Shown here piece after piece: positions 4,201 to 45,174 of a stretch of 45,174 bases of DNA. The notes beneath the pieces were generated by a model. The model ran no database searches. It was not told the DNA's origin and saw only the letters and a program-made list of their open reading frames with translations. The position numbers and the translations under genes were made by a program. Positions within the stretch are counted from its first letter, which is position 1. Each line of letters begins with the position of its first letter. The DNA is from a virus. The stretch lies in the IMG/VR virus record IMGVR_UViG_3300031772_000062, positions 1-45,174 of that record, one strand, 5' to 3'.

Positions 4201-5700
4201 TTGTCTGCCCCGCAGGTGGCACATGCCGAAGGCGTGACGATAGCGGCATCCGCCGCCGCCCTGGCGGTCACCGTCCCACAAGCGGGACACACGGCAGGCG
4301 CGAATGTGGCCCCCGACTCCGCAGCCCTCTCCCTGACAGCGCCACAAGTCCAACACGCCGAAGACGTGGTAGTAACACCTGCCGCTGCGGCCTTCGCCCT
4401 CACAGCGAACCAGGTGGGACACACGGCGGACACTACCCATACGCCCACCCCTGCGGAACTGTGCCTCACTAGCCCAGCAGTCGCCACGACAGGCGGAGCA
4501 ACCGTCGCCCCCGACCCTGCCCCGCTTGCCCTAAGTGCGCCAACAGCGGACGCTACCGGCGGTGTCACCGTATTCCCCGACGCTGCCGCTATCACTGTCG
4601 CCATACCCGCCGCCGGTAGAGCCGCTAACGCTGGCCGCAGTCCCGACCCCGCAGAACTCGTCCTCACGGCCCCGCAAACAACCCACGCTGGGGGTGCGAC
4701 CGTTGCCGCCATACCAGCCGCCCTAACCGTCAACGCACCACAAGCCACGACGGGTGCCACCGCTACCGTCGCCCCAGCATCCGCTGCCCTAGTTGTCGCC
4801 ACCCCGCAGGCAGAACACGCGGGCGACGCTACCCGCACCCCGACGACAGCCGCCCTAGTTCTAACCGCCCCGACAGCCGACGCTACCGCAGGACTAGCAG
4901 TCGCCGCCACACCCGCCGTCCTTGCCCTAACTACTCCGCAAGCCACAGTCTCGGGCAACGCCACAGTATCCCCGCCCGCCGCCACACTCGCCCTGACCGC
5001 GCCACAAGCCGCACCCTCCGCCGTAACCGATACCACGGTCACCCCCGCCCCGGCTGCCCTAATCCTGAATGCCCCGCAGGCCGAACCTGGCGCGAGCGTG
5101 GCCGTCGCGCCAGCCGCAGCAGCGCTCACGATCACCGCCGACCAGGTTGATCGTTCGGGCAAGGCTGGACGCACCACCATCCCCGCCGGACTGATCCTCA
5201 CAACCCCGCAAGTCACCCTGACCATAGGTGACGATGCTACGGTAGCGCCCGCCCCCGCTGAATTTACCTTCTCGGCCCCACTCGCCGACGCTACAGGCGG
5301 GGTCACTGTCACCCCGGCCCCCGCAGCCTTCGCCCTCGGCGCACCCCAGGCGGCGACAGGCGCTAACGCCACAGTCGCCCCAGACCCGGCGGCGCTAACA
5401 CTCACCACACCGCAGGTCACTAGGAGTGGTGAGGCCACGGCCGCCCCAGCCGCAGCCGAACTCACCCTCACCACCCCGGCCGCCACTAGAAGTGGCAATG
5501 CGGGGCGCACCACGGTATCGGCAATCCTCCGCCTCACCGCGCCCGGCGTATCCGAAATCGGTGTCGTTTATGCCGAATACACCTTCACCCTAACCGCCGT
5601 TCAGATAGAAGAATGGACCGCTGACAGCCAACAGATAGAAGCGTATACTGTAACCGCAACCCAAGTCGAGGCGTGGGTTGCCCACCCGTTGGAGGACTAG
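1294..5700 (+). CDS. Giant propeller-plus-repeat fibre/adhesin, 1468 aa
   Basis: Residues 4-311 are seven near-identical 44-residue units (core SPYITIYDTSDWSKV, then GVAFNAAGTLMAVAH), the number and size expected for a seven-bladed beta-propeller. Residues ~315-1425 are roughly 45-50 degenerate units of ~23-24 residues built on TPAPAALTLTAPQAGHTAD. They are Ala/Pro/Thr-rich with alternating hydrophobic residues, predicting an elongated beta-type stalk. The last ~45 residues (YTFTLTAVQIEEWTADSQQ...) leave the repeat pattern and are acidic and aromatic. There is no signal peptide or catalytic motif. It is followed directly by a baseplate-type protein and the lysis genes, so a tail fibre or host-binding adhesin is the best guess. 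The long open frames on the opposite strand are repeat-driven shadows. Confidence 0.88.
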   Translation: MASYLAVSHGASPYITIYDTSDWSKVANPSTLPPADGYGVAFNAAGTLLAVAHDNSPYITIYDTSDWSKVTDPEDLPASYGQGVAFNAAGTLMAVAHHNSPYITIYDTSDWSKVADPETLPPADGYGVAFNAAGTLMAVAHDDSPYITIYNTSDWSKVADPEDLPAGYGRGVAFNPADTLMAVAHSATPYVTIYNTSDWSKVADPSTLPTDYGTGVAFNPAGTLMAVAHGTTPYVTIYNTSDWSKVADPETLPAGTGRGVAFNAAGTLLAVAHSTTPYVTIYNTSDWSKVADPSTLTPWPYGVAFGATAAGGTPATVTPAAAALTLTKNTPTRQANAGRTNTPAALTISTPQASAKGIRNATVTPAPAAFASLVSAPTRSANAARAPPAQAISTTIPQAGHTAAAARAPAASPLVLAADLAATSASATRTPGVAALALTAPQATAEGVTHATVTPAAATFAVTAPTQSRSANAGRAPDPAAFATTTDQATRSGAATKIAGTAAPILSAPQATAEGVTHATVTPAAAALTLTTPAVTRTGNAGRTPDPAALAIAAPQAGHEEDWVETPAPAVLTLSAPQAGHAADANVAPAPATLAVTVPAASRAGSAGRTPNAATLILSAPTISHAEDVQTIPAAAALTVSAPQAGHTADATASPAPAALSLVIPQTEAAISVTATPAPASLALSTPQIGHTADAGRVPASALVALSAPQVTISGGTTAAATSAALTLITPQAGHTADATVTPAPAILSLAAPQATRAGTATATPDPAPLILAAPQVGHEESVQTLPAAAGLAVSVPQAGHAANAGRTPTPASPILTCPTVTITADATVTPDPAVLTLTVPQVGHQEGVQVRPASAALVLTAPKATVVGNANVTPVPAALVLAAPLAPPAATATTAPAPAALSLNIPQATRTADADRTPPPALLVLTAPQVQHAEGATVAAVPAPFALTAPQAGRAADAKVAPAPAVLALSAPQVAHAEGVTIAASAAALAVTVPQAGHTAGANVAPDSAALSLTAPQVQHAEDVVVTPAAAAFALTANQVGHTADTTHTPTPAELCLTSPAVATTGGATVAPDPAPLALSAPTADATGGVTVFPDAAAITVAIPAAGRAANAGRSPDPAELVLTAPQTTHAGGATVAAIPAALTVNAPQATTGATATVAPASAALVVATPQAEHAGDATRTPTTAALVLTAPTADATAGLAVAATPAVLALTTPQATVSGNATVSPPAATLALTAPQAAPSAVTDTTVTPAPAALILNAPQAEPGASVAVAPAAAALTITADQVDRSGKAGRTTIPAGLILTTPQVTLTIGDDATVAPAPAEFTFSAPLADATGGVTVTPAPAAFALGAPQAATGANATVAPDPAALTLTTPQVTRSGEATAAPAAAELTLTTPAATRSGNAGRTTVSAILRLTAPGVSEIGVVYAEYTFTLTAVQIEEWTADSQQIEAYTVTATQVEAWVAHPLED
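1303..2226 (+). repeat. Seven tandem 132-bp propeller-blade repeats
   Basis: Seven consecutive 132-bp units encode the 44-aa blades. Nucleotide identity between units is very high: the stretch encoding YITIYDTSDWSK is almost letter-perfect in blades 1-4, and a second subtype (YVTIYNTSDWSK) runs in blades 5-7. This suggests recent amplification by unequal recombination or gene conversion. Confidence 0.93.
2227..5560 (+). repeat. About 45-50 degenerate 70-bp Ala/Pro repeats
   Basis: This is protein-level tandem repetition within the giant fibre: each unit has a strand-like core (AALTLTAP), a linker (QAGHTADAT or QATRSGNAGR) and a TPAP-type turn. Units diverge much more than the blade repeats upstream. 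Two linker classes alternate irregularly: His/acidic (GHTADA, QHAEG) and Arg/Gly (RSGNAGR). The count is an estimate from length divided by period. Confidence 0.85.
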
Positions 5701-6012
5701 ATGGCCGAAATCCACTTGGGCTACATAGGGCTAATCCTGCGGCCCACGATCAAAGACGAAGACGACGTGGTCGTCAACGTGTCCACGGCCACAACCAAAC
5801 AGATCAAACTGGAAAAACCGGACGGCACCCAAATTGCCAAAACTGCCGCCTTCTACACTAACGGCTCCGACGGCATCATCCAATACACGACCATCGCCGC
5901 CGACATCGACCAAGTAGGCCGCTGGAAAGCCCAAGGCTACATTGTCACCCCGACACGTACCTTCGGCACCAGTATCCACACTTTCGACGTGAAAGGCAAC
6001 ATCTACACCTAG
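5701..6012 (+). CDS. BppU-type baseplate/tail protein, 103 aa
   Basis: The protein is a single small beta-sandwich-like domain: an N-terminal strand (GYIGLILRPTIKDEDDVVVNVS), then ATTKQIKLEKPDGT, then GIIQYTTIAADIDQVGRWKAQGY. This strand order and the motif 'D-G-I-I-Q-Y ... G-x-W' are typical of the N-terminal domain of phage baseplate upper proteins (BppU-like), which sit at the tail tip. It begins immediately after the TAG of the giant fibre (no gap), so the two are translated together, and it may anchor that fibre. The assignment rests on motif resemblance only. Confidence 0.7.
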   Translation: MAEIHLGYIGLILRPTIKDEDDVVVNVSTATTKQIKLEKPDGTQIAKTAAFYTNGSDGIIQYTTIAADIDQVGRWKAQGYIVTPTRTFGTSIHTFDVKGNIYT

Positions 6013-6032: not shown

Positions 6033-6842
6033 ATGACACGCGACCCGTACCCCATGCTAGAGAAGGTGTGCCGCATCTACACACCGAAAAAGATCGTCGG
6101 CGTAGACTTGGACGACCCGGCCGTCTGGTCCCACCCGCCCATCGAGGATTACCGGTATCTCAGCGTCCACTGGGGGGGTGGTGCGAACATTGCTGGCTGG
6201 CCGATAGAGGAGCCAGCGCTTACGCTAGGCCAGAAGATGGCCGTCCAGTTGGGCCGCATCCGCTCGGTCCTCAAGGGCTGGCTCGCCTACCACAAGTCGA
6301 AAGGCATGTCAACGATAGCGTACTGCACCTGGGTGGACATCTTGTTCGGCCGCATTGGCAGGCTGAGGGGCCACAGGTTCAGCGGTGGACAGTGGGGCAG
6401 CATCAACGGGATCGCCCACGCGTTGGTCCTCGTCATGGGCTTCGGCCAGAAGGCGTCACGGAAAGCGTGGCAGGCTGTCGGCCTGGTCTGGTTCTGTAGC
6501 GGCGGGCCGCAGGTGGTGGGTCACCGTTTCTTCAACGACTGGTCCGAAACGCAGACCACTACTTCCTGTCCCGGCGACGAGAACTCTAAGATCATCGCCG
6601 ACGAAGGCTACATCGGGGCGCTCGGCGTGCTCCGCTACCGGCCGCTGGGTCTGTCGTCGAAGGGCCGCTGCGTGAAGGCCGCCACCCTCAAATTGGCGGA
6701 GCTCGGCTACCAGTTGAGGCCGTCCCGCAACTACGGTAAACTGGCCCAGTCGGTGGTCATCGACTTTCAGATCAACCACGATGGTCTGATCCCTGACGGT
6801 AGGGTCGGACCCTCTACCTGGAAGGCATTGGCCCGAGCATGA
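6033..6842 (+). CDS. Endolysin: N-acetylmuramoyl-L-alanine amidase with PG-binding domain
   Basis: Residues ~38-182 fit the Amidase_2/PGRP fold: H46 in LSVHWGG, H164 in VVGHRFFNDW and C179 in TTTSCPGD are the expected zinc ligands, and the GHR...T-CPG spacing is classical. Residues ~205-268 (VKAATLKLAELGY ... VVIDFQINHDGLIPDGRVGPSTWKAL) form a PG_binding_1 repeat that holds the enzyme on peptidoglycan. It cleaves the amide bond between MurNAc and the stem peptide at lysis. GGGAGGA lies just before the ATG at 6033; a later ATG at 6054 is possible. The next gene overlaps its stop (ATGA). There is no signal peptide, so a holin is needed for export. Confidence 0.9.
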   Translation: MTRDPYPMLEKVCRIYTPKKIVGVDLDDPAVWSHPPIEDYRYLSVHWGGGANIAGWPIEEPALTLGQKMAVQLGRIRSVLKGWLAYHKSKGMSTIAYCTWVDILFGRIGRLRGHRFSGGQWGSINGIAHALVLVMGFGQKASRKAWQAVGLVWFCSGGPQVVGHRFFNDWSETQTTTSCPGDENSKIIADEGYIGALGVLRYRPLGLSSKGRCVKAATLKLAELGYQLRPSRNYGKLAQSVVIDFQINHDGLIPDGRVGPSTWKALARA

Positions 6843-8551: not shown

Positions 8552-9265
8552 ATGCCACAATCAACGGTGACAGCAGACCAGCAGGAACGGATCATCCTTC
8601 TCCGCCAGCAACGCTTGGGCGGCAGGGCGATAGCCAAGCAGGTTGGTATCCCCTACGGTCGGGTCCGTCGCTACTTGGAACGCCTGGACCCGCCACCCCC
8701 GGACGGGCACCTGCAACCGGGCCAAGCCACCTTCCGTGCCCTAGTCTACGACCTTGAATGCTCAAATCTCAAGTCGGACCTGGGGTTGCTACTGTGCGCC
8801 GCCTTCCTGGACCTGGCCGACGGTAGTATCCTGTCGAAGACGATAGACGACTTCGGGCCACGGGTCAGCGGCGAACATCGCCTAGTCCTCTGGGTCAAAC
8901 AGCAAGTCGAAGCCGCCGACTGTCTTATCGGCCATAATGAGACAGGCTTCGACCGGAACTTCATCAACGGTGTCCTCTCCCGCTACGGGGAAACACCCCT
9001 ACCCAAACGCATCCACATTGACACTTACATGGCGGCACGGTACGGGTGGACGGGCCTACCCTCATCGTATTCGCTGCGGAACCTGAGCAACTTCTTCGGC
9101 CTCTCCGAAGAGAAGGAGTCTTTGGACAAGGACGAGTGGCGGACAGCGTTGGCCGACCCTGAGGCGTTGCGGGCACTGCGAGTCCACTGTGAGCGGGACG
9201 TTGCGGTGACCGCCCTCCTGTGGCAGCGGATCAAACCCTACTATTTCTCTTGGAGGGGCCGCTGA
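8552..9265 (+). CDS. HTH-fused RNase H-like 3'-5' exonuclease, 237 aa
   Basis: Residues ~10-43 form a resolvase-type helix-turn-helix (RLGGRAIAKQVGIPYGRVRRY). Residues ~62-230 carry the three exonuclease motifs of the DnaQ/RNase H-like superfamily: D67 and E69 in LVYDLECSNL, D134 in IGHNETGFDRNFI, and D216 in HCERDVAVTALL. This matches the RNase_H_2/YprB-like and DNA polymerase B-type exonuclease group, with His where many members have Tyr before the last Asp. It is probably a DNA nuclease acting in recombination, repair or host DNA degradation. The domain pairing suggests sequence- or structure-targeted cutting. It is apparently translated from a leaderless transcript and is the last large gene of the late arm. 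Confidence 0.85.
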   Translation: MPQSTVTADQQERIILLRQQRLGGRAIAKQVGIPYGRVRRYLERLDPPPPDGHLQPGQATFRALVYDLECSNLKSDLGLLLCAAFLDLADGSILSKTIDDFGPRVSGEHRLVLWVKQQVEAADCLIGHNETGFDRNFINGVLSRYGETPLPKRIHIDTYMAARYGWTGLPSSYSLRNLSNFFGLSEEKESLDKDEWRTALADPEALRALRVHCERDVAVTALLWQRIKPYYFSWRGR

Positions 9266-9284
9266 GTTAACCGCCGTTACGGTA

Positions 9285-9320
9285 TTGTGGCCCTACGGTA
9301 GGACCGTACTATGGTAGTAC
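9285..9320 (+). promoter_or_regulatory. Promoter with overlapping palindromic operator
   Basis: TTGTGG (9285-9290), 17-bp spacer, TACTAT (9308-9313) fits a sigma70-type promoter. The perfect palindrome GTACTA-tgg-TAGTAC (9306-9320) covers the -10 and the expected start site, where a repressor would act. A direct repeat TACGGTA flanks the spacer start (9279 and 9294). The expected transcript has a ~24-nt leader with GGGAGGAG before the ATG at 9344. Confidence 0.55.
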
Positions 9321-9343
9321 TGTTCGGGCAGAAGGGAGGAGAC

Positions 9344-9655
9344 ATGACACGCAAGAACGACCCCCACACCGACTTGGTGTTCGACCGTCGCAGACTCGAA
9401 TCCTATGATGCCGGCTCCGTGATCGACGACCTGCGCGACGCCCAAAAGGCGGGGTGGACCGTAATCTGTTTGGAGCACGACGAATACGCGATTGACATCA
9501 CGGGCTATCGGCCGATGACCCGAGCCGAACTTGACGCGGCCGAAAAAAAGCGCCGCAAGACGGCGGAGGTCAAGAAGGCGAAGCGGCAGGAACAGATCGA
9601 ACAGGACAAGAGACTCTTGGTGCGCCTCATCTCCAAATACGGGCAACCGCAATGA
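9344..9655 (+). CDS. Hypothetical protein with basic coiled-coil tail, 103 aa
   Basis: GGGAGGAGAC immediately precedes the ATG. Residues 1-60 look globular (DLRDAQKAGWTVICLEHDEYAIDI). Residues 61-95 are a Lys/Arg/Glu-rich helix (AEKKRRKTAEVKKAKRQEQ), probably a coiled coil or nucleic-acid-contacting tail. No known family is recognised. It overlaps the next gene by ATGA, making a two-gene unit under the promoter at 9285-9313, separate from the late arm upstream. Confidence 0.75.
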   Translation: MTRKNDPHTDLVFDRRRLESYDAGSVIDDLRDAQKAGWTVICLEHDEYAIDITGYRPMTRAELDAAEKKRRKTAEVKKAKRQEQIEQDKRLLVRLISKYGQPQ

Positions 9656-9906
9656 TCGAACCGCCTGACTATCCGAAGATGATGCTCACCCTCGCCATCC
9701 AAGACGAGAGGATCGCCAGCATAGGGGGCCAGACCCGACCCGGTAGGGCGACGGCCGCCCGTTGCGACCAGATGCTCGAAGTGCTGGCCCGACTGTGGGA
9801 CTGTCCCGTCCACGAATTCTGGCATGATGTTATGGACGCTGCTGGGGGTGGCCTACCCGCACCATTGGAAGCGGAACGGCTGCTCGCCACACTGAGGGAA
9901 CGGTAA
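9652..9906 (+). CDS. Hypothetical protein, 84 aa
   Basis: The start is coupled to the preceding gene by ATGA. The protein is helical with motifs IASIGGQTRPGRATAARCDQ and LARLWDCPVHEFWHDVMDAA. No family is recognised and no membrane segment is present. It is the second gene of a short operon of likely regulatory or accessory function. Confidence 0.7.
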   Translation: MIEPPDYPKMMLTLAIQDERIASIGGQTRPGRATAARCDQMLEVLARLWDCPVHEFWHDVMDAAGGGLPAPLEAERLLATLRER

Positions 9907-14594: not shown

Positions 14595-14782
14595 TGCTCC
14601 TCCTCCCTGTTCTGTGGGGCCTCACGCACCAACACTAGACGATCCCGGTCGTCCTCACTGTCCAGCAGGACACGCTCCACCGCGTCCTCCAAGGTGGGCG
14701 CCCAAACTTCTAGTTCCTGTAGGCGCTCCCAGTTCGGCTTGTCCACGTGGACTATCCAGCGGCGCTGCACACGGTCAGGCAT
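14591..14782 (-). CDS. Hypothetical protein, 63 aa
   Basis: A compact strand-helix-helix-strand pattern (RRWIVHVDKPNW, LQELEVWAPTLEDAVERVLL, RDRLVLVREAP) starting after AAAGGGGACAACG. The acidic C-terminus NREEEQ encodes the downstream GGAGGAGGAG site. Function unknown. Confidence 0.75.
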   Translation of the reverse strand: MPDRVQRRWIVHVDKPNWERLQELEVWAPTLEDAVERVLLDSEDDRDRLVLVREAPQNREEEQ

Positions 14783-15416
14783 CGTTGTCCCCTTTCGTGT
14801 CGGCCCCTACTAGTTCGAGTAGCCGCCCGTACTGCCAGCGACGCTCCTTAGCGTTGGCGCCGGCGGCGTAGGCGGCGGAGACGGCGGCGTCGGCGGCGGT
14901 GGCGTAGGCGGCGGAGACGGCGGCGGCGGTGGCGTAGGTGGCGTGGGCGGCGTAGGCGTCGTAGGCGGCGTAGTAGGCGGCGTCCAGTTCCTCCTTCGTC
15001 GCCTTGCCCACAGCGTAGAGGCGGGCTATCCGAACACACTCCCAACTAGCGGCGTCGGGTTCCCGACCCGCTTTGCGTTCCCGCCGCAAGGCCCGTTCCG
15101 CACAGTCACAGGCGAACAGGCGCAACACGCGGGCATCGAGGACAAACGTGCGGACGATGCGTAGGCGGCACGACACCGCCTTGGTGTCGCCCCGCAACGG
15201 CTTGTGCTCTGCGCACCGTTCGACCTCGCACAACAAGCCCTCCCGCAACCATTCGAGGACTTGTGGCCCCTCACAGTAATGGTAGCCCCGCTCGCAGAGG
15301 ACCATCTTCGACGGGTCGAGATGCCTAGTCCACGCCCTCGCAGGATACCGGTACTTGGTGCCTGACACTAGGCTCTGCCGCTTAGCGCCCAACACCTTCC
15401 ACAAGCGTTCAGCCAT
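14775..15416 (-). CDS. DUF7666/Imm5-like protein, paralogue A, 213 aa
   Basis: The N-terminal ~90 residues (LWKVLGAKRQSLVSG ... CERGYHYCEGPQVLEWL) look like the phage DUF7666 module. The C-terminal half starts RLFACDCAERALRRERK, then IARLYAVGKATKEEL, an Ala/Tyr-rich repeat tract (AAYAAYDAYAAHATYATAAA) and a closing helix ERRWQYGRLLELVG, a layout seen in Imm5-like putative immunity domains. The tract encodes an alpha-helical repeat and is built from GCC/GTA-type codons prone to slippage. It is a near-duplicate of 16550-17167. The second of two adjacent ATGs was chosen as start for spacing from GGGGAGGG. Confidence 0.75.
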   Translation of the reverse strand: MAERLWKVLGAKRQSLVSGTKYRYPARAWTRHLDPSKMVLCERGYHYCEGPQVLEWLREGLLCEVERCAEHKPLRGDTKAVSCRLRIVRTFVLDARVLRLFACDCAERALRRERKAGREPDAASWECVRIARLYAVGKATKEELDAAYYAAYDAYAAHATYATAAAVSAAYATAADAAVSAAYAAGANAKERRWQYGRLLELVGADTKGDNDA

Positions 15417-15988
15417 CATCCCTCCCCTCTCCCTATCGGCACCCCTACGGGCGCTTCCCGCACAAACTTCGGGCAGCGACGATCATCGAGACGCACCCGA
15501 TCCAGCGTGACCTCACCCCACTCCGTCCAGAACAGGGTGTCCTCCAACGCTTGGACCATCGCCCTCCCCTCCGCTTCGGGCAGATCAGCGACCCGGCGGC
15601 GGGCCACAGCCCGCAACGCACCGATACGCACCGGATCGGCGCCCTCCAAATTCACGACCTCCCCAGCATCCGAACCCAGCCACAACAGCAACTTCACCGG
15701 GTCGGTAGCGAACCGGCGATGCTTCCGGGTAGGACGATACGCCCACTCCCCATCATGCACCCCCTGACTGCCCTCCAAGACACTCAGCAGCCGGGACCGC
15801 AACTCGCCAGCGACCATTTTCCAACGGGCAGAATAGCGTTCTGCCTCCCACATCAGGTCGGCTAACGGTAGGGCGTCGGCGGGTAGTTGGTCGGGCCATT
15901 CTGGTTCTTCGCCGCTCCCTTCGGCGGCGCACACGGCCGGATAGCAGAGCGAGAGTAGCAGGTTCCGTTCGGTCGATGTCAGGCTCAT
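15416..15988 (-). CDS. Hypothetical helical protein, 190 aa
   Basis: The start at 15988 has GGGGAGGGAGAG upstream; a longer frame to 16117 would overrun the small zinc-ribbon gene. The N-terminus is helical (SLTSTERNLLLSLCYPAV), with repeated Trp and charged helices (LADLMWEAERYSARWKMVAGELRSRLL) and a C-terminal region rich in Arg/Glu. No family recognised. The C-terminal GRGEG is the next gene's ribosome-binding site in codon form. Confidence 0.75.
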   Translation of the reverse strand: MSLTSTERNLLLSLCYPAVCAAEGSGEEPEWPDQLPADALPLADLMWEAERYSARWKMVAGELRSRLLSVLEGSQGVHDGEWAYRPTRKHRRFATDPVKLLLWLGSDAGEVVNLEGADPVRIGALRAVARRRVADLPEAEGRAMVQALEDTLFWTEWGEVTLDRVRLDDRRCPKFVREAPVGVPIGRGEG

Positions 15989-16362: not shown

Positions 16363-16553
16363 CGCCACAGATCCTGCGCCCGCGCCGTGTCTCTCGCATG
16401 ATGCTTACTGCTCGCCAGGTCGGTGCTCTGGCGACAGCGAGAGTGGAGTCGCCGCGCCATCCGTTCTACCGCCTCATCGGACGGCACGAATCGTAGCCCC
16501 CGCTCGCCCGGTTTGCCTGTCACAACCCACAGCTTGGGATTACCCATAATCAT
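16341..16553 (-). CDS. Hypothetical protein, 70 aa
   Basis: ATG at 16553 overlaps the upstream TGA (ATGA) but is only two bases from TAGGAGC; the in-frame ATG at 16547 has better spacing and may be the real start. Basic and helical (DEAVERMARRLHSRCRQ, HHARDTARAQDLWRAA). No family recognised. C-terminal AVGEG encodes the next ribosome-binding site. Confidence 0.68.
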   Translation of the reverse strand: MIMGNPKLWVVTGKPGERGLRFVPSDEAVERMARRLHSRCRQSTDLASSKHHARDTARAQDLWRAAVGEG

Positions 16554-17167
16554 GCTCCTACTAGTTCGAGTAGCCGCCCGTACTGCCAGCGACGCTCCTT
16601 AGCGTTGGCGCCGGCGGCGTAGGCGGCGGAGACGGCGGCGTTGGCGGCGGTGTAGGCGGCGGAGACGGCGGCGGCGGTGGCGTAGGCGGCGTAGGCGGCG
16701 GCGTCGGCGGCGGCGTGGGCGGCGGCCAGTTCCTCCTTCGTCGCCTTGCCCACAGCGTAGAGGCGGGCTATCCGAACACACTCCCAACTGCGAGGGTCGG
16801 GTTCCCGGCCCTGCTTGCGTTCCCTCCGCAAGGCCCGCTCCGCACAGTCACAGGCGAACAAGCGCAACACGCGGGCATCGAGGACAAACATGCGGACGAT
16901 GCGTAGGCGGCACGACACCGCCTTGTTGTCGCCCCGCAACGGCTTGTGCTCGGCGCACCGTTCGACCTCGCACAACAAGCCCTCCCCCAGCCAGTGGAGG
17001 ACTTGTGGCCCCTCCGCGTAGTGGTAGCCCCACACACAGAGGGCCAGACTCTCAGGGTCGAGGTGCTTGGTCCACGCCTTCGGCGGGTATCGATACTCGG
17101 TGCCAGACACTAGGCACTCGCGCTTGGTACCCAGCACCTTCCACAGACGATCAGGCTTCCTAGCCAT
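16550..17167 (-). CDS. DUF7666/Imm5-like protein, paralogue B, 205 aa
   Basis: Paralogue of 14775-15416, colinear over the whole length: LWKVLGTKRECLVSGTEYRYP, LLCEVERCAEHKPLRGDNK, RLFACDCAERALRRERK, IARLYAVGKATKEEL, an Ala-rich tract of different length, and ERRWQYGRLLELVGA at the end. It is the first gene of the long leftward operon, with AAGGAGGAGTG before the ATG and a clear promoter at 17187-17216. Nucleotide identity with paralogue A is very high, so the pair is a recent duplication. Being first after the promoter suggests early, strong expression. Confidence 0.78.
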   Translation of the reverse strand: MARKPDRLWKVLGTKRECLVSGTEYRYPPKAWTKHLDPESLALCVWGYHYAEGPQVLHWLGEGLLCEVERCAEHKPLRGDNKAVSCRLRIVRMFVLDARVLRLFACDCAERALRRERKQGREPDPRSWECVRIARLYAVGKATKEELAAAHAAADAAAYAAYATAAAVSAAYTAANAAVSAAYAAGANAKERRWQYGRLLELVGA

Positions 17168-17186
17168 CACTCCTCCTTCTCCCACA

Positions 17187-17766: not shown

Positions 17767-18498
17767 CTACTTTCTAATGCTGACACCCGCAGCCTCCGGA
17801 TCGTAACCGCAAGGCCATACCGTCCCTTTGTCCGCATACGCCCCGTCGAGGTCCGCCCCGCCGAGGTGCGCCCCACAGAGGTCCGCCCCGCCGAGGTACG
17901 TCCCGCCGAGGTGCGCCCCACAGAGGTCCGCCCCGCCGAGGTGCGCCCCACAGAGGTCCGCCCCGCCGAGGTACGCCCCGCGGAGGTCCGCCCCGTCGAG
18001 GTACGCCCCGCGGAGGTCCGCCCAGCCGAGGTCCGCCCAGCCGAGGTCCGCCCCGCCGAGGTACGCCCCGCGGAGGTCCGCCCCGTCGAGGTACGCCCCG
18101 CGGCCGAACTTCCGAACGGACCCTTCCCCGTCTACCACAGCAGCCACCAGGCCGCACCGCACCCGCACCTTTTCGCAATCCTCGCCCAACAGGTCGCCGG
18201 GCAGCCATCCGACGATGAGCACCGTCCGTGCGGGCCTACCGCCCTGCGCCATACCCGCGAAGGTCAGGCCAACCGACAGGCCGTCGCCCGGCATGGACGG
18301 GCAAGGCCCCTTGTTGTGCCAGTCGATGTCCGTTTCTTCGACGGCCCAGCCGCCGGGGAATGGCCAGCGGTAACCGTTGCGGGCAGTGAAGTCGGCCCGC
18401 ACCGTTTTGACGCCCCACCGCATCGACCGTATCTGGTCAGCGGTAAGGGAGTCTAGGGCGGTTCCGGCCTGCCATTCGGTGTTGAACGGGCCAATCAT
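17767..18498 (-). CDS. Pentapeptide-repeat protein, 243 aa
   Basis: Residues ~135-222 contain about 17 tandem pentapeptides of the A(D/Y/H)LxG type (AYLDG, ADLRG, AYLGG, ADLCG, AHLGG), which fold as a right-handed quadrilateral beta-helix. Residues 1-130 form a separate domain (MRWGVKTVRADFTARNGY ... GDGLSVGLTFAGMAQGG ... TVLIVGWLPGDLLGEDCEKVRVRC) that I associate with phage pentapeptide proteins of unknown role. GGGAGGCGGCA precedes the ATG at 18498, and a promoter lies 34 bases further upstream. Some pentapeptide proteins mimic DNA and inhibit gyrase, but that activity cannot be inferred here. Confidence 0.85.
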   Translation of the reverse strand: MIGPFNTEWQAGTALDSLTADQIRSMRWGVKTVRADFTARNGYRWPFPGGWAVEETDIDWHNKGPCPSMPGDGLSVGLTFAGMAQGGRPARTVLIVGWLPGDLLGEDCEKVRVRCGLVAAVVDGEGSVRKFGRGAYLDGADLRGAYLGGADLGWADLGWADLRGAYLDGADLRGAYLGGADLCGAHLGGADLCGAHLGGTYLGGADLCGAHLGGADLDGAYADKGTVWPCGYDPEAAGVSIRK

Positions 18499-21505: not shown

Positions 21506-21520
21506 GTGCTATGATAGCAC
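21506..21520. promoter_or_regulatory. Palindromic bidirectional leaderless promoter
   Basis: GTGCTAT-G-ATAGCAC is a perfect 15-bp palindrome in the 18-bp gap between divergent genes. Rightward it gives -10 TATGAT (21510-21515) with ATG of the terminase seven bases later at 21523. Leftward it gives TATCAT (21516-21511) with ATG of the zinc protein at 21504. Neither gene has a Shine-Dalgarno sequence. No clear -35 on either side, so an activator or a phage factor may be needed, or the dyad may be an operator. Confidence 0.6.
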
Positions 21521-21522
21521 CG

Positions 21523-23556
21523 ATGTCCGTAGCCGCGGCCAATCGCCGCACAAGAATCTGTGCCGCCGACGGATGCGGCAACCTCATCGGTCCCGAAGCC
21601 CACCATCGGCGCCTGTTCTGCTCGCCCACCTGTCAGAAACGCACTAGGGAACGCCGCGCCCGTGCCCGCAAGAAAGGCAAGCCGGAACCCCGCCTGAAAG
21701 ACATGCCCGCCTTTCTCAACCCCCGCCGGGGAGAACTCTACGAAAGGCTAGCCACTGACCCCGTAATCGTAGACGGTTTGCTCAAAGGCAACATCAGTCA
21801 GAAAGAGGCCGCCACCCTCCTCGGCACCACCCAAGCGAACGTGAGCCGCACTATCGCCGCCCTCGTCGAGGACGCCCAGTTGGAGAAAGACCGGGGTGTG
21901 TGGGCCGCCGACCCGACCAACCTGGAACTTCTCGGCCCGTCCGGCGATCCGCCCGAAGGCCGCGAGCAGGAATGGCTGGACGCCCTCATCGCCGCGTTCA
22001 CCCTGTTCAGGGAACGGTTTTTCCGTGACGAACGCGGCAATTATTACATAACTAAAGCATTTCACGCTAACTGGATCAGGGCCATATGCGAAACGGTTTA
22101 TAAGGGTGGGCAGAGACTCATCCTCAGTCCGCCCCGGCATGGAAAGACCGAACTGCTCATCCATTTCTGCGTGTGGATGATGATGCGCAACCCGAACATC
22201 CGTATCCTATGGATTGCCGCTAATGCCACCCTGGCGGGCGACTGGATCGTCCACATTAAAGACCACTTGGAGAACAACACGGCGCTACGAGCAGCGTTCC
22301 TCCCGCCGGGCCTTGACTTTAAGCCCGCCCGCAAGACGGGGAAGCCGTGGAGCAAGGACCAGATCATCCTCGCTACCCGCACCATTCCGCTAAAGTCGCC
22401 GACCCTACAGGCCGTTGGTCGGGGCGGGCAGATCAGAAGTCGGGACGTGGACTTGATGGTCATGGACGATATTGAGAACACGGATTCGACGGCGCAGGAC
22501 TACATGCGTGTGTTGACCCGTACTTGGTTTGCCGAAGTGGCGACCCGCGTCATGCAGAACACGGGTTTCATTGTCATCACTTCCCGCGTCCACCCGGACG
22601 ACTTGGCGGGTTACCTGTTGGAAAACACGGAATGGGATTCTATCGTCGAGGCCGCCCATTCGATTGCCTGCGAACTGGACCCCAATGACGAGGATATCCA
22701 CGTTGACTGCATGTTGTTTCCCGAACTGCGGTCATACAGGTGGCTTATGGGTCGTCGTCGTACTGTCGAAGTGGCGGGCGAAGGCTACTTCCAGATGGTC
22801 TACCAGAACATCGCTTCTGGTGAGCGGATGGCCCCCACTTTCATCATGGCCGACCTGCGGGACTGCCTGGACCGTAGCCGCACGCTGGGGCCACCCCACA
22901 ATGGGTGCCGCCTAGTCGCTGGTCTAGACCCCGCTTCGGCGGGCTTCCAGGCGTCGTTCCTGTGGGCCTACGATCCGCTGACCGGCCGACAATATATGGC
23001 CGACCTGGACAACATGTTGGGCGGGGGAATACAGGGCGCACGCCAGATCATTGCCGCCTGGTACGACAGGTACCGTTGCGACCATTGGGTGATCGAAGAA
23101 AACGCGTTCCAGCGGGCCATCCGTCTCGACGAGAAGCTGCGGGAATACTGTAACGAGCGGCAGATTCTTTTGGAGGGCGTGCAGACCTACCGGCAGAAAA
23201 CGGATGAGGATTTCGGGGTCGGCGCGTATGGCGGCCTGTTCTCCGAATGGGTTTGGGTAGAGGACCGTGGACAAGAGACTACCAAAGTGCGTAGAATGAG
23301 TCTACCCTATAAGGATGGTGAGGCGCAGGCGAAGACGGACCTTTTCTTGCGGCAAGCGAAATGGTTCTCCGATGGTGCTAGACCTACACATCGTACCGGA
23401 AAGGGTATACAGTTGGATGTGCTGATGGCCTCCTGGTTCCCGCAGAAGGTCATGCGTCGTTGGGCCGTGGACTTTCAGGGGGAGGTCGAGTTGGAGTACG
23501 AGCCGTCGTTCGCCAAGTGGGGTGAGCCTTCCCCCGTGAATGAGACACCGTGGTAG
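21523..23556 (+). CDS. terL: Terminase with fused zinc finger, HTH and large-subunit domains, 677 aa
   Basis: Residues 13-37 have a zinc finger-like Cys pattern (C13, C18 ... C33, C37). Residues ~85-115 form a helix-turn-helix (NISQKEAATLLGTTQANVSRT). Both would normally be in a separate small terminase. Residues ~195-360 are the packaging ATPase: Walker A PPRHGKT (203-209), Walker B VDLMVMDD (309-316) and the coupling motif ITSR (352-355). Residues ~462-635 are the RNase H-like nuclease: D469 in AGLDPAS and E525/E526 in WVIEENAF, with a later Asp632 in LDVLM. It cuts and pumps DNA into the prohead through the portal encoded next. The ATG at 21523 fits leaderless initiation; an ATG at 21511 would lie inside the palindrome. 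Confidence 0.93.
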   Translation: MSVAAANRRTRICAADGCGNLIGPEAHHRRLFCSPTCQKRTRERRARARKKGKPEPRLKDMPAFLNPRRGELYERLATDPVIVDGLLKGNISQKEAATLLGTTQANVSRTIAALVEDAQLEKDRGVWAADPTNLELLGPSGDPPEGREQEWLDALIAAFTLFRERFFRDERGNYYITKAFHANWIRAICETVYKGGQRLILSPPRHGKTELLIHFCVWMMMRNPNIRILWIAANATLAGDWIVHIKDHLENNTALRAAFLPPGLDFKPARKTGKPWSKDQIILATRTIPLKSPTLQAVGRGGQIRSRDVDLMVMDDIENTDSTAQDYMRVLTRTWFAEVATRVMQNTGFIVITSRVHPDDLAGYLLENTEWDSIVEAAHSIACELDPNDEDIHVDCMLFPELRSYRWLMGRRRTVEVAGEGYFQMVYQNIASGERMAPTFIMADLRDCLDRSRTLGPPHNGCRLVAGLDPASAGFQASFLWAYDPLTGRQYMADLDNMLGGGIQGARQIIAAWYDRYRCDHWVIEENAFQRAIRLDEKLREYCNERQILLEGVQTYRQKTDEDFGVGAYGGLFSEWVWVEDRGQETTKVRRMSLPYKDGEAQAKTDLFLRQAKWFSDGARPTHRTGKGIQLDVLMASWFPQKVMRRWAVDFQGEVELEYEPSFAKWGEPSPVNETPW

Positions 23557-36396: not shown

Positions 36397-37596
36397 ATGG
36401 GCGCTGTTAGTGGTGTTTCAACCACTTACAACCTAGTTAACTATCTGGGCACCTTGTTTAAGGTGACCCCAGATGATACGCCGCTGGTCACTATGATGGG
36501 CGGGCTGCGGGGGTGGGCGCCGGTCAATTCCAAGATTTTCACTTGGCAGACCGTCGATAATACTGCTGCCGCTCAGCCGGCCATCGTGGAGGCAGCGGAC
36601 CCGGATTACTATGAGCGGACCCGTTCGGAAGTGTCGAACTGTACGCAGATATTCCAGTATGGCGTGAAGATCGGCTATTCCCAGTGGGGGGCGACAGACC
36701 AGTTGTCGTCTACTGCTCAGACGATTCTGGGCACGCAGCCTATCGGCAACGAACTGACTTTCCAGAAGATGTTGACCCTGGAACGGTGCAAGCGGGACTT
36801 GGAGTATTCGTGCATCCGTGGCGCGTACCAGTACCCGACTGACAATAACACCGGCCGGAAGATGCAGGGCCTGGAAAACGCCATTTCGACCAACTCGGTG
36901 AGCCTGTTTACCACGATTGGCACCGTGACTGGTGCTAACGCTGGTGACTTGTGGACCCACGGGGACGCTCACGGTTTGGTGACTGGCGACGAGGTTCAGT
37001 TCTCTGCTGTCGGCACGGGTGGAACCGGGTTCGCCGTGGACACCCCGTACTGGGTGATCTATGTGGGTAGCGCGACCTTCACCTTGGCCTCGTCTCTTGC
37101 TAATGCCCTCGCGGGTACGATCAAGACGATGAGTGCGGACACGGTGGGTACTTGGACGCTGGTGAAGTCGGCGAAACTGGCGAAGGGTGATGTCAACAAG
37201 TTGCTTCGTACCATGTACGATGCGGGTGCGCCTTTCCGTCAGCCGGTGATCTTCTGCAACTCGTTCAACAAGCAGGTCATTTCCGACATTTACGGGTACG
37301 CCCCGGATAGTCGGAATGTCGGCGGTGTGAACATCAACCAGATCGAAACAGACATCGGGAACTTGGGTATTGTCATCGACCGGCACATTCCGGCCTCGAA
37401 ACTGATCGTGGCGGACATGAGCATCCTGCGCCTGCGGGCGATGCCGATCCCCGAGCGTGGTGTCCTGTTCTTCGAGGAAACCGCCAAGACTGGTGCCTAC
37501 ACAAGCGAGCAACTCTACGGCGAGTTGGGACTTGAGTACGGTTACGAGGCTTGGCATGGGATCATTAAGGGTTCTACGACCGACGAGCAGTCGTAG
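36397..37596 (+). CDS. Major capsid protein, SU10/DUF5309 type, with inserted domain, 399 aa
   Basis: N-terminal half fits the DUF5309 (SU10-like) capsid family: NLVNYLGTLFKVTPDDTPLVTM, SKIFTWQTVDN, SNCTQIFQYGVKIGYSQ and LTLERCKRDLEYSCIRG. Residues ~172-257 (WTHGDAHGLVTGDEVQFSA ... PYWVIYVGSATFTLASS ... GTWTLV) are a beta-rich insertion resembling the E1_FCCH-like domain seen in phage surface proteins. The family sequence then resumes (SAKLAKGDVNKLLRTMYDAGAPF ... FCNSFNKQVISDIYG ... LGLEYGYEAWHG). The insertion probably lies on the capsid's outer face. A GTAGGGGGTAGG stretch precedes the ATG. The strong hairpin after its stop may limit read-through. Confidence 0.9.
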   Translation: MGAVSGVSTTYNLVNYLGTLFKVTPDDTPLVTMMGGLRGWAPVNSKIFTWQTVDNTAAAQPAIVEAADPDYYERTRSEVSNCTQIFQYGVKIGYSQWGATDQLSSTAQTILGTQPIGNELTFQKMLTLERCKRDLEYSCIRGAYQYPTDNNTGRKMQGLENAISTNSVSLFTTIGTVTGANAGDLWTHGDAHGLVTGDEVQFSAVGTGGTGFAVDTPYWVIYVGSATFTLASSLANALAGTIKTMSADTVGTWTLVKSAKLAKGDVNKLLRTMYDAGAPFRQPVIFCNSFNKQVISDIYGYAPDSRNVGGVNINQIETDIGNLGIVIDRHIPASKLIVADMSILRLRAMPIPERGVLFFEETAKTGAYTSEQLYGELGLEYGYEAWHGIIKGSTTDEQS

Positions 37597-39613: not shown

Positions 39614-40543
39614 ATGAGTACGGTCGCGCAAGTCATCAACCGGACCCTCCGCGAGTGGTTGTACCCCGCCAACGAGCGGCCCATCGCCGCGCCCCTCGCC
39701 GCCAACATCTCGTCCACTTCGGCGACAACCTTCACCTACAAGGACGGGTTCTTCGCTGCCGAAGAAGAAGACCTGTTGGACGCTGGGGTGGTCGTAGAGA
39801 TCGACCGGGAACTCATGTTCACTTCCGGCATCGACACTGGCAGCCGCACCATCACTGTCCAAACACGCGGCTACATGGGTACCACGGCCGCTATCCATAC
39901 GGCGGGGGCGGACATTGTGCTGGCCCCCTTTTATCCCCGCCAGCATGTGTTCGACGCTCTCGGAGACACTATCGAAGGATTGTGGCCCGACCTGTATGTG
40001 AAAACGACGATGGCCGCAACCGCGCAGACCACGCCGCTAGAAGTCCCGGCCACGGTCGAAGATGTTGTACGGTACATTTACCCGGAGACAGACAGCACGA
40101 ACACCCGTTGGCTGCGGGGCACGATTGATCTGCTCAGAGACTTTCCCGGTTCGGGCGGCACCCCCACCCCTACTAGTGTGGCCGTCCAGTTCATCAACGT
40201 GCCATCAGGCCAGAACGGCTACCTGACCTATAAGGCCCGGTTCACTCGGCCCACCACCGAATCGGACGACCTGTCCACCTCGTTCGGTTGCCCGACCCGG
40301 TGGGATGAACTGCTGATCGCGGGTGCGGTCATGCGGATCATGGGTGGCCGCAACATGGATTTCGCTACAGCCGAATACTTGTCGGACCTGTTGGAGGCGC
40401 AGGGGTTCCCGGCGGGTACGGGCGAGCGCCTATTCCAGTCTATGGCCCGCCTCTACAATTGGCTGCTTGACCGGGCACGCAGGGACCAGTCGATCTACGA
40501 CGAGGTTGGTGTGCTGATGACAGAGGTAGTGGTGACTGGCTGA
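39614..40543 (+). CDS. Head-tail adaptor/connector candidate, 309 aa
   Basis: GGGAGGGCCG precedes the ATG. The N-terminus (AQVINRTLREWLYPANE) is an alpha helix followed by strand-rich segments (FTYKDGFFAAEEEDLLDAGVVVEIDRELMF, TITVQTRGYMGTTAAIH) and the helical PRQHVFDALGDTIEGLWPDL. The C-terminal half contains helices LLIAGAVMRIMGG and LFQSMARLYNWLLDRARRDQ. This alternation and the position before a large propeller-like protein recall the adaptor (gp11-like) that links portal to tail in podoviruses, but no signature is diagnostic. Confidence 0.6.
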   Translation: MSTVAQVINRTLREWLYPANERPIAAPLAANISSTSATTFTYKDGFFAAEEEDLLDAGVVVEIDRELMFTSGIDTGSRTITVQTRGYMGTTAAIHTAGADIVLAPFYPRQHVFDALGDTIEGLWPDLYVKTTMAATAQTTPLEVPATVEDVVRYIYPETDSTNTRWLRGTIDLLRDFPGSGGTPTPTSVAVQFINVPSGQNGYLTYKARFTRPTTESDDLSTSFGCPTRWDELLIAGAVMRIMGGRNMDFATAEYLSDLLEAQGFPAGTGERLFQSMARLYNWLLDRARRDQSIYDEVGVLMTEVVVTG

Positions 40544-42432
40544 TGTCTACCCTGCCCACAACGCAGAACACTCAGCGCCCTGTGGCCCGTGGCTACGGGG
40601 CGCTCATCACCTACGGGTCGGCGGAGGGCGACGACCTGTATGTGATGCTCGCCCCCACCCCGGACCAGCCGACCCGGCGGACGACGGGCCAGTCGGGTGC
40701 CCAAATGTTGCAGGTGGAGTCCAACCCTGAGGATTTCCGTCCCGAATCTGGCCGCATTTTCTCCCGCAGCCGGTTCACTGGTGGGGAGGGCTTGGACTAT
40801 GCGCACCGTGCGGGCGGCAATTCCGAATTGGATGCGACCCGTTTCTGGAACTCCCGGAACATTAGTGTGTCGGGTGTCGATCCTGGCGAGCAGGACCATG
40901 TGACCCTACTGCCAGAAACGGCGGCGATAGCGGACACGGGGGCGACGACGCCGATCATGGTGCGTCCGGCGAACACTACCACCGTATTCTGGGTTGACGA
41001 TACGGCCGTGAAGAACAGCACGAACCTCGCCACCGCATCGCCGACAATCAACACGGAAACCCCGGTGGGGGGTACCACCGTATCCGGTTTGTGTGCCCTG
41101 GGCCGCACCCTGTACGGCGCCCTGGGGGCGCACGGGATTCACATTCGCACTTGGGCGGGATCATGGCAACATTGGTCTGATCTGGCCGCCACGGCCGTAT
41201 GGTCGGCGAAGGGTCGGGTTCTGGCGTCTACGGGGGCGTCCCTATACGATGCTGCCGCCCTAGCGGCGTCTACCCTGCTGAAAACTTTGGACTCGAATGA
41301 GTCGTGGACCGATGTGATCGACGCTGGCGGGGTGATCCTCGCCGCCGCCACCGACGGTAAGGTCTACGCTTTCGCCGACGAGGCGACGGCCCTAGTGTTG
41401 CGAGGCGAGACAGAAATGCCGTTGGGCGAAGTGCCCTACTGTCTGGCATATTCGCATGGCCTCGTCCTCGTCGGGGTGGGGGATGTGACAACGAGCGGCA
41501 AGATTGGCCGCGTGTATGTGTCACAGTTGACCGGCAACCGGCTCCGCAACAGTCAGATGCTCCGCCAGTGGGGGTCCGACAACGCTGCCCGCGACTATTC
41601 GCCCCGCACTTTCCTGGTCACCAGGGACGCCGTGTATTGGGGCATCATCGAGGACGGGTCGGAAACCCACTTGTGGAAGTACCATTTGACTACGGCTGGC
41701 CTGACCCGCGACCTGATCGTCTCAGCGTCGAACCTGGTGCGGGGCATCGTCCAAGTGAACGACCATCTGATCGTCGGCTTGGACACTAGCGGCCTGTACC
41801 GGGAGGCGGACACTTTCGCATCGTCGGGCTATCTGATTACCCCGCTAGCCGACTTCTATTCGGCGGCGGACAAGGCATGGGTCGGGGTCCGCCTAGACAA
41901 CCTTACCCTAACGGCGGCGGGAGCACAGGTCACGCTAGCCTATTCGACGAACGCTGCCGCCATCCTAGACTCGGCCCATACGTCGTGGACGACGGCGATC
42001 ACCGTCACCCCCACCAATGGGCGGGTAACGACCGAGCAACCACTGTCCGACGTGACCGGCCGCTACATTGCGTTGAAGGTCGCGTTGACCCGCAGCACCG
42101 CACAGACCGCCTCTCCCGAAGTGACAACGATGGCGGCCCGCCAGTTCGAGCAGGCCGAAGATGTGGTCCTAGAGTTGCCGATCAATGTGGACGACATGGT
42201 GGAACGGTCGCACCGTATGGCCCTGCGGGTGCCGGGCCGGGGCAAAGCCGTGTTGGACAAACTCTACACGCTGGAAGGCAAACCTGTCCATGTCCATCTG
42301 CTCCGTAGCGGGGTGCGGGTGCGTGGCCGCCTGGAGGAGGTCGCTTCACCCTCCCCGTATCGGGCGAGGCGGGGATCGTCCGAGACGCTGGTAGCGATGG
42401 TGCGGGTGCGGGGAGCGAAGGTGACGGTCTAG
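40543..42432 (+). CDS. Propeller-like tail (nozzle/hub) protein, 629 aa
   Basis: Start overlaps the adaptor stop by one base. Residues ~150-450 contain about six or seven repeats of a strand pattern '(V/L)-hydrophobic-G-x-DG-(K/R)-(V/I)-(Y/H)': TVFWVDDTAV, TLYGALGAHGIHIRTW, VLASTGASLYDA, VILAAATDGKVYAF, LVLVGVGDVTTSGKIGRVYVS, YWGIIEDGSETHLWKY and LIVGLDTSGLYREA. This indicates a beta-propeller. The C-terminal ~110 residues form another domain (LDKLYTLEGKPVHVHLLR). Podovirus nozzle proteins have comparable propeller domains. A tail baseplate hub is an alternative. Confidence 0.66.
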   Translation: MSTLPTTQNTQRPVARGYGALITYGSAEGDDLYVMLAPTPDQPTRRTTGQSGAQMLQVESNPEDFRPESGRIFSRSRFTGGEGLDYAHRAGGNSELDATRFWNSRNISVSGVDPGEQDHVTLLPETAAIADTGATTPIMVRPANTTTVFWVDDTAVKNSTNLATASPTINTETPVGGTTVSGLCALGRTLYGALGAHGIHIRTWAGSWQHWSDLAATAVWSAKGRVLASTGASLYDAAALAASTLLKTLDSNESWTDVIDAGGVILAAATDGKVYAFADEATALVLRGETEMPLGEVPYCLAYSHGLVLVGVGDVTTSGKIGRVYVSQLTGNRLRNSQMLRQWGSDNAARDYSPRTFLVTRDAVYWGIIEDGSETHLWKYHLTTAGLTRDLIVSASNLVRGIVQVNDHLIVGLDTSGLYREADTFASSGYLITPLADFYSAADKAWVGVRLDNLTLTAAGAQVTLAYSTNAAAILDSAHTSWTTAITVTPTNGRVTTEQPLSDVTGRYIALKVALTRSTAQTASPEVTTMAARQFEQAEDVVLELPINVDDMVERSHRMALRVPGRGKAVLDKLYTLEGKPVHVHLLRSGVRVRGRLEEVASPSPYRARRGSSETLVAMVRVRGAKVTV

Positions 42433-43817: not shown

Positions 43818-44113
43818 ACATGAATATGGTGAAAGAAACAATCGAAACGAGCGCCTGGACCGACCGGGAAATACTGCTACGCACCTACTATCAGGTCGTA
43901 GAAACTAACGGTACCGTCCGACTGCACGACCGGGAAATCTATGGCGACCCGACTCATGGGCTAGTCGGCCTAAAGGTACAGGCGACGGCGAACACGGAGA
44001 GCAGGGTAAGACTGTCGGGCCAGTGGCGGATCGTGTGTGCCCTGGGCACCCTCATTGTCACGGCCGTCTTCGCCCTGCTCGGCATCATTCTCGCGAACGG
44101 GATGGGGGGCTAA
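43814..44113 (+). CDS. Small membrane protein, XhlA-type holin candidate, 99 aa
   Basis: ATGA overlap with the fibre gene. The soluble N-terminal two thirds are followed by one C-terminal transmembrane helix (WRIVCALGTLIVTAVFALLGIILANG). Soluble domain first and one C-terminal span is the layout of XhlA-type holin accessory proteins. In the circular genome it is upstream of the lysis cassette in the same operon. It could instead anchor a sugar-modifying complex, because the next gene is the glycosyltransferase fusion. Confidence 0.65.
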   Translation: MNMNMVKETIETSAWTDREILLRTYYQVVETNGTVRLHDREIYGDPTHGLVGLKVQATANTESRVRLSGQWRIVCALGTLIVTAVFALLGIILANGMGG

Positions 44114-44115
44114 CC

Positions 44116-45174
44116 GTGGGTAAAGTGGTGGTCGGCTGGCTGGACCCCGGACAGGTAGACGGCGTGTTCGCCGAATCGGTGATCGGCCTTATCGTCACCG
44201 GTACCCTGAACGGACTGGTCGAAGGGTGGATCAGGCTAGAAACCGGTCCCGTCTTGGACCGTGCCCGCAACGACCTGACCGACAGGTTCCTGACGACCGA
44301 CGCCGAGTGGCTACTCACTGTCGATTCGGACATGATGTTCGCCCCCGACCTCCTAGAACGCCTGCTCGCCATAGCCGACCCCGCCGAACGCCCCATAGTG
44401 GGTCCGCTCTGCTATTCGACGAACCACGACGGCGTGTTTCCCGTCGCCTACCGCATGGTCGGCGGCAGGTTCGCCTTCATCGCTAACCCGCCCGAAGATA
44501 CGCTGCTCAAAGTAGACGGGGTGGGTGCCGCCTGCCTCCTCATGCACCGTAGCGCATTGGAGAAGATACGGGACGACAAGGTGCTGCCCGGCCAATGGTA
44601 CGACCACCTGTTCCTGGGCGACAAGCCGGTTGGAGAGGACCTGGCGTTCTGTGTGCGGGCACGGTCCTCCGGTATCCCCATCTTCGTCCATACGGGTATT
44701 CCGATCCGCCACATTAAGGGCCGGATGGCCGTGGACCGCGACTCGTTCGTCCACTGGCGTAGGGGCCACAGGTTCGTCGTCACCGGGACTGGGCGTTGCG
44801 GCACCGGCTATGTGGCCGAACTGTTCAAGGCGATGCAAGTCTCCTGCGGGCATGAGACAGTGTACGGCCCTGAGGGGCCACGCGAGTGGGGTACGGGCAG
44901 GGGGGACTCGTCTTGGATGGCTGCGCCGTTCCTACGTGACCTGGCGGGCCAGGGAATCAAGATCATCCACCTGCACCGTGACCCGCTAGCCGTCGTCAAC
45001 TCGCTTGTCGGGATAGGCTTCTTCGACCCGGCCATAGATCACGGACCTTACCGAGAGTTTGCCCGCCAATGGTGCCCGCAGGCGTTCCAGACAGCCGACC
45101 CGGTAGAAGCGGCCACCACTTTCGTTATCTGGTGGGATAGCCTGATCCGCCCCTACGCCGACATGAGCGTCAAA
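44116..45174 (+). CDS. Glycosyltransferase-sulfotransferase fusion, N-terminal 353 codons
   Basis: GTG at 44116 has GGGGGG seven bases upstream. Residues ~1-215 are a GT-A glycosyltransferase: LLTVDSDMMFAPDLLERLL holds the D70-S71-D72 (DxD) metal site, VDGVGAACLLMHRSAL and VGEDLAFCVRA (GED 173-175) match the GT2 acceptor/base region, and H199 in IRHIKG is a probable metal ligand. Residues ~218-419 are a sulfotransferase: P-loop TGTGRCGTGY (223-232) for the 5'-phosphosulfate and HRDPLAVVNS (287-296) for the 3'-phosphate of PAPS. The coding continues at base 1 and stops at 402, 419 aa in all. It would add and sulfate a sugar on a virion or cell-surface glycan. The acceptor is unknown, and it lacks a membrane segment. 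Confidence 0.85.
   Translation, partial: MGKVVVGWLDPGQVDGVFAESVIGLIVTGTLNGLVEGWIRLETGPVLDRARNDLTDRFLTTDAEWLLTVDSDMMFAPDLLERLLAIADPAERPIVGPLCYSTNHDGVFPVAYRMVGGRFAFIANPPEDTLLKVDGVGAACLLMHRSALEKIRDDKVLPGQWYDHLFLGDKPVGEDLAFCVRARSSGIPIFVHTGIPIRHIKGRMAVDRDSFVHWRRGHRFVVTGTGRCGTGYVAELFKAMQVSCGHETVYGPEGPREWGTGRGDSSWMAAPFLRDLAGQGIKIIHLHRDPLAVVNSLVGIGFFDPAIDHGPYREFARQWCPQAFQTADPVEAATTFVIWWDSLIRPYADMSVK
44974..45174. repeat. Terminal direct repeat, right copy (pairs with 1-201)
   Basis: Same 201 bases as the start of the window, with T at 45048 where the left copy has A at 75. See the left copy for interpretation: circular closure of the assembly, with a silent variant. Confidence 0.97.

Follow-up and report, generated by a model that had tools for sequence, protein, structure and literature searches.

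The DNA analysed here, referred to as the window, is IMG/VR virus record IMGVR_UViG_3300031772_000062, with a length of 45,174 bp. Sequence comparison revealed a 201 bp end repeat (positions 1–201 and 44974–45174, identical at 200 of 201 positions) which closes the record, and a single gene on the plus strand was shown to run across this closure, as positions 44116–45174 followed by 202–402 form a frame of 420 codons, corresponding to 419 amino acids and a stop codon, with no internal stops. The sole mismatch between the repeat copies (A75 versus T45048) is silent, and the identical 419-residue protein is obtained whichever copy is used for joining, in agreement with the initial annotation, which had described one frame split across the window ends. 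The one-base difference between the copies suggests population variation or an assembly overlap rather than a fixed terminal repeat.

The predicted protein consists of an N-terminal GT-A glycosyltransferase (GT) domain (residues 1–216; positions 44116–44763, plus strand), assigned on the basis of a PHROG match, residue conservation and the fold of a homologue, which is followed by a sulfotransferase (ST) domain. The latter encompasses residues 217–353 (positions 44764–45174, plus strand), assigned by superfamily placement and sharing 47% identity with the ST half of a homologous protein encoded by viral contig L011, and, after closing of the record, the final 66 residues (354–419) and the stop codon (positions 202–402, plus strand). 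The gene starts with GTG, 2 nt past the stop codon of the directly upstream ORF (43820–44113, plus strand), which from sequence reading encodes 97 amino acids with a C-terminal hydrophobic segment, while the ATG of the next ORF, also identified by sequence reading (386–718, same direction), lies at position 386 and overlaps the end of the fusion gene.

The GT and ST domains meet at approximately residue 216 (nucleotide 44764), and the end repeat starts 210 nt further on. Since this border is reached in contiguous sequence, ahead of the repeat, joining of the ends cannot have produced the fusion; all named motifs of the protein are likewise in contiguous sequence, and the join is needed for the last 66 residues only. 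Furthermore, the same two-domain frame was found intact, and in an internal position, in viral contigs L011/L057 and L141/L142, with L011 carrying both domains in one frame at 43% identity to the window protein over the whole chain. Closure of the record through a 201 bp repeat with one mismatch could be taken to mean that the chain was assembled artificially from two genes, yet this explanation is refuted by the occurrence of the same fusion inside other contigs, as well as by the position of the border, and its probability is practically nil. The junction, for which misassembly had initially been considered, was in this way found to be genuine, and the motif positions given in the initial annotation (DSD at 70–72, GED at 173–175, H199, TGTGRCGTGY at 223–232 and RDPLAVVNS at 288–296) were reproduced.

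A family search of both halves, as proposed in the initial annotation, yielded a strong PHROG match for the GT half, whereas the ST half alone remained below every cut-off. Residues 1–221 matched PHROG 34859 ('glycosyltransferase') at 1.9e-27, a family that carries no curated cut-off, while Pfam GT2 models returned matches below their cut-off only. The DxD motif D70-S-D72 (44323–44331, plus strand), predicted from sequence to bind the metal and nucleotide-sugar, and the GED motif at residues 173–175 (44632–44640, plus strand), located in the catalytic region of GT-A enzymes, both belong to a set of residues (R51, N52, D70, D72, E174, D175, H199 and K201) that was invariant in 39 of 39 aligned relatives. 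The GT family is common in viral contigs, with at least 529 relatives among 600 stretches examined.

Protein structure prediction of the L011 homologue using AlphaFold yielded a model with a pLDDT of 92.6 and a pTM of 0.82 when 75 aligned sequences were supplied, as opposed to a pLDDT of 33 without an alignment. Residues 1–227 of this model matched solved GT-A enzymes with Z scores of 13–19.5 over 160–190 residues, the best solved match being STIV A197 (Z 19.5, 2.3 Å over 174 residues), and others including the GT domain of human LH3, mimivirus R699 and Mnn9. The GT of mycobacteriophage Che8 was also present, though weakly, among the viral structure matches of this model. The N-terminal half is well supported as a GT-A glycosyltransferase, both from its sequence and from the fold predicted for L011, a homologue with 43% identity. 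The GT-A fold and catalytic motifs are shared with phage GTs of the PHROG 34859 and phrog_1574 type, STIV A197, the LH3/PLOD GT domain and mimivirus R699; however, the usual PHROG 34859-type gene ends after approximately 220 residues without an ST domain, whereas the fusion carries one.

When the window ST half was searched alone, no match above Pfam, NCBIfam or PHROG cut-offs was obtained and family matches were sub-threshold only, which is the point in favour of this half being another P-loop NTPase or kinase. Homologues were gathered with a DNA pattern for GxGRxGT-x15-HE, resulting in approximately 100 viral sequences with 88 distinct domains. The predicted 5'-phosphosulfate-binding loop TGTGRCGTGY (residues 223–232, with GTGRCGT at 224–230; 44782–44811, plus strand), of the form GxGRxGT, and the invariant HE pair at residues 246–247 (44851–44856, plus strand), a candidate catalytic base region, were both part of this pattern, so that their conservation in the retrieved set arises by construction. 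The 3'-phosphate-binding Arg/Ser pair of PAPS sulfotransferases is spaced eight residues apart, and the corresponding motif in the window protein, R288-D-P...S296 (RDPLAVVNS, residues 288–296; 44977–45003, plus strand), has this spacing, while neither residue formed part of the search pattern; R288 is present in 100% and S296 in 99% of the 88 homologues.

Relatives of the window domain were placed by profile methods. Among 69 members of the ST family, Pfam matches at E≤0.01 were obtained for Sulfotransfer_3 (28 members), Sulfotransfer_4 (12) and Sulfotransfer_1 (11), and the curated Pfam cut-off was passed by L063 and L130 for Sulfotransfer_4 and by L088 for Sulfotransfer_1. A profile built from the window and L011 sequences only recovered L088 at 1.3e-26 and L109 at 5.7e-31. 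A profile of the 69 viral members matched 47 sequences in the PDB (best E-value 2.4e-4), which were mostly sulfotransferases and included no kinases, and the majority of these matches align away from the pattern region, several of them over profile positions 51–195. Single-sequence comparison of the window ST half with NodH (E-value 0.023, probability 2%) and with the APS-kinase part of NodQ (E-value 0.24) pointed in the right direction, yet was too weak to count, and structure searches of the PDB and of viral structures with the two-domain L011 model returned, among the matches listed, GT matches only, as the list was filled by the GT half, a result that does not count against the ST half. 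The conserved Arg/Ser spacing, the relatives passing Pfam cut-offs and the kinase-free PDB matches make a P-loop NTPase or kinase identity extremely improbable. Sequence and profile comparison lend good support to the C-terminal half being a member of the PAPS sulfotransferase superfamily rather than of a kinase family, and the identities that the initial annotation had proposed for the two halves were both upheld.

With known PAPS sulfotransferases (Sulfotransfer_1, _3 and _4; CurM, SULT1A1 and TPST) the viral ST subfamily shares the 5'-phosphosulfate-binding loop, the Arg and Ser residues spaced eight apart and a relation at profile level. It is nevertheless divergent from these enzymes, being characterized by the motifs GTGRCGT, GHE and (D/E)(S/A)S(W/Y), and is here fused to a GT; no characterized member of the subfamily was found.

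The GT-ST order, with the same GT family, was identified in at least nine viral contigs including the window, the others being 3300024518_002083, 3300037515_000119, 3300037518_000168, 3300007960_000727, 3300017971_001793, 3300028840_001050, 3300028840_002412 and 3300017963_001997. The reverse, ST-GT order, also with the same GT family, was observed in 3300005832_000128 and 3300017987_000015, and the existence of both domain orders implies at least two fusion events. In three further contigs (L022, L027 and L063) the ST domain is joined to other GT2 enzymes, while in L047 and L123 the GT gene overlaps the ST gene in a separate frame. ST homologues are, however, mostly standalone, and the fused proteins are scattered over several places in the ST tree, which was read without branch supports. 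In another three contigs, a member of the same ST family is linked to an FkbM-type methyltransferase (L033, positions 4398–5762, minus strand; L085; and L072, positions 1924–3102), the FkbM assignment being based on a Pfam run on L033.

Among 50,697 phage records, no relative of the window ST half was detected, nor any place covering both halves of either the window protein or the L011 protein, and no named phage among those searched carries the GT and ST pair. No relative was recovered from bacterial or archaeal genomes in two scans, and a plasmid collection contained no relative of the ST domain. A remote standalone ST branch (L130; 28% identity) occurs in 184 records of Salinibacter ruber phages, which represent a cultured system; it is annotated there as 'hypothetical protein', one example being that of Salinibacter phage 4_20 (L219, positions 4992–5633).

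The open-access literature searched yielded no named GT-sulfotransferase fusion and no report of a phage-encoded sulfotransferase, although phage sulfotransferases have been noted before, with their function called unclear (PMC10580990). A single chain combining a GT and a sulfotransferase is undescribed in this literature and in named phages. The unfamiliarity of the single-chain pair, as remarked upon in the initial annotation, thus holds for the named phages searched, but the pair is not unique to the window: among uncultivated phages the architecture recurs, although it is still rare.

The genomic position of the fusion gene bears on its possible target. In the window, the terminase large subunit gene (21511–23556, plus strand; tblastn to annotated terminases at 1e-21 and better) and the major capsid protein gene (36397–37596, plus strand; tblastn to annotated Mycobacterium and Propionibacterium phage capsid proteins, to 5e-28) lie upstream, the capsid gene being approximately 6.5 kb from the fusion gene and not adjacent to it, while an endolysin-like gene (6033–6842, plus strand; PHROG endolysin families, 4.5e-7) is located downstream, beyond the closed end. 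In L109 the capsid gene is similarly found approximately 5.5 kb upstream. In two homologous contigs, the fusion gene follows the major capsid gene at a distance of 1–2 kb and adjoins a nucleotide-sugar epimerase gene. The gene order in L057 is terminase, portal, (protease), capsid, HNH, GT-ST, epimerase and GT-like genes, where the protease and the HNH-like frame were assigned by position and sequence alone, and that in L141 is portal, protease, capsid, HNH, GT-ST, epimerase, a second ST and a MobA-like nucleotidyltransferase. A second, standalone ST was observed approximately 2–3 kb downstream of GT-ST in the same phage cluster (L141, positions ~9048–9680; L024, positions 2658–3335), beside epimerase and nucleotidyltransferase genes.

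Relatives of the window capsid gene were located in 69 viral loci, and neither the GT nor the ST domain was present in the flanks available there, many of which are cut short. As capsid-gene relatives thus lack either domain nearby, the fusion gene appears to be accessory. For the neighbouring window protein (40543–42432), no relatives were found.

These neighbourhoods were compared with the proposed targets of the enzyme. Virion modification, already favoured in the initial annotation, is supported by the head-gene neighbourhoods of L057 and L141, a virion protein being the putative acceptor. Proteins of the virion represent the target with about an even chance, a reading based on the location of the gene among late structural and lysis genes in the window and within the head module, beside a nucleotide-sugar epimerase gene, in two homologous contigs, and on the known glycosylation of virions by phage glycosyltransferases. 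In mycobacteriophages Che8, Corndog and Myrna, for example, a phage GT acts on capsid or tail proteins (Freeman et al. 2023, as reported in PMC12363180), and that source mentions no sulfotransferase for virion glycosylation in these phages, unlike the fusion described here.

The same bifunctional enzyme could instead modify glycans on the host surface or polymers of the cell wall, which might, for example, mask receptors against superinfection. Solved GT-A matches to the model include the cell-wall and polysaccharide enzymes TarP, RmlT, GlfT2 and WrtF, and the ORF upstream of the fusion gene ends in a hydrophobic segment, both of which would fit such a role; this target is nonetheless considered unlikely in view of the late-gene position, the head-module neighbourhood in L057 and L141 and the apparent lack of transmembrane or export features in the fusion protein itself.

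A function in hypermodification of phage DNA, through bases that are both glycosylated and sulfated, was also considered. DNA base modification systems with a GT and a sulfotransferase have been predicted in phages (Iyer et al. 2013, cited in PMC10829341); they combine the same two activities, but a DNA-modification context was not found for the fusion. L011 displayed a sub-threshold match to a TET-associated GT family, while the late structural position of the gene, together with the absence of thymidylate synthase (PF00303) from the window and four other fusion-bearing records, in a search whose control was positive, renders a role in DNA modification very improbable. A Tet/JBP search produced no match, but as none was obtained in its control either, this result is uninformative.

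Taken together, the fusion protein probably combines two enzymatic functions for the synthesis of a sulfated glycan, the most likely carrier being virion proteins. Repeated fusion of ST and GT domains, in either order, suggests that the product is a sulfated glycan, and the location near head genes suggests that it is made on virions. Both domains would be active, with the sulfate placed on the GT-attached sugar and a virion protein serving as acceptor. The initial annotation had envisaged addition of a sulfated sugar in one step, which is corrected here to two coupled transfers. In the first, the GT-A domain, with a metal held at D70/D72, would move a sugar from a nucleotide-sugar to the acceptor, and in the second the ST domain would sulfate that sugar or its glycan; for each domain the identity is well supported and the activity is predicted. 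PAPS would be held by the R227 loop and R288/S296, with the H246/E247 region acting as the putative base. The APS kinase gene was absent from nine fusion-bearing records (with control genomes being positive), and because the phage record carries no such gene, PAPS is presumed to be supplied by the host. The benefit to the phage may be a negatively charged coat that alters adsorption, adhesion or recognition.

Alternatively, the two domains may have different substrates, or the sulfate may be placed on a non-sugar group (tyrosine or lipid), in which case the fusion merely co-regulates two virion- or host-modifying enzymes. This would be compatible with the occurrence of the ST family as standalone proteins and in fusion with an FkbM methyltransferase, and with the presence of protein-tyrosine sulfotransferases among the PDB matches of the ST-family profile. 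The repeated fusion to a GT in both orders is, however, most simply read as indicative of a shared substrate, and separate substrates are regarded as decidedly unlikely.

Synthesis of a sulfated glycan on virions, the preferred reading, can be extended to the lineages involved: it is conceivable, with a likelihood somewhat below even, that several unrelated phage lineages independently fused a GT to a PAPS sulfotransferase to decorate their own capsids with a sulfated glycan, using PAPS from the host pool. As the pairing is found repeatedly in environmental phages that are not related to one another, and frequently next to capsid genes, sulfated sugars may form a coat on the particles of some phages. 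Both halves belong to known families, and a sulfated virion glycan as their product would be new if shown; to our knowledge, no phage with such a sulfated-glycan particle surface has been described. If true, this would affect how particles adsorb, how they adhere to mucus or minerals and how they are recognized, and would represent a viral counterpart of sulfated surface glycans. The recurrent GT-ST fusion turns the open function of phage sulfotransferases into a testable question, namely whether virions carry a sulfated sugar.

Several repetitive features were also observed elsewhere in the window. Close downstream of the fusion gene, positions 1294–5700 encode a 1468-residue protein with six β-propeller-like repeats of 132 nt (44 amino acids; 'ASPYITIYDTSDWSKVADP'), followed by many 22-residue repeats ('PAPAALTLSAPQAGHTADA'); it corresponds to phrog_19311, to which no function is assigned, and is possibly an adhesin or a fibre with a long stalk. 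Positions 17794–18153 contain 17 register copies at 15 nt spacing, equivalent to a five-residue repeat, inside open frames on both strands. Finally, two similar frames on the minus strand (14775–15419 and 16550–17185) are 84% identical over 300 nt, indicative of a recent duplication.
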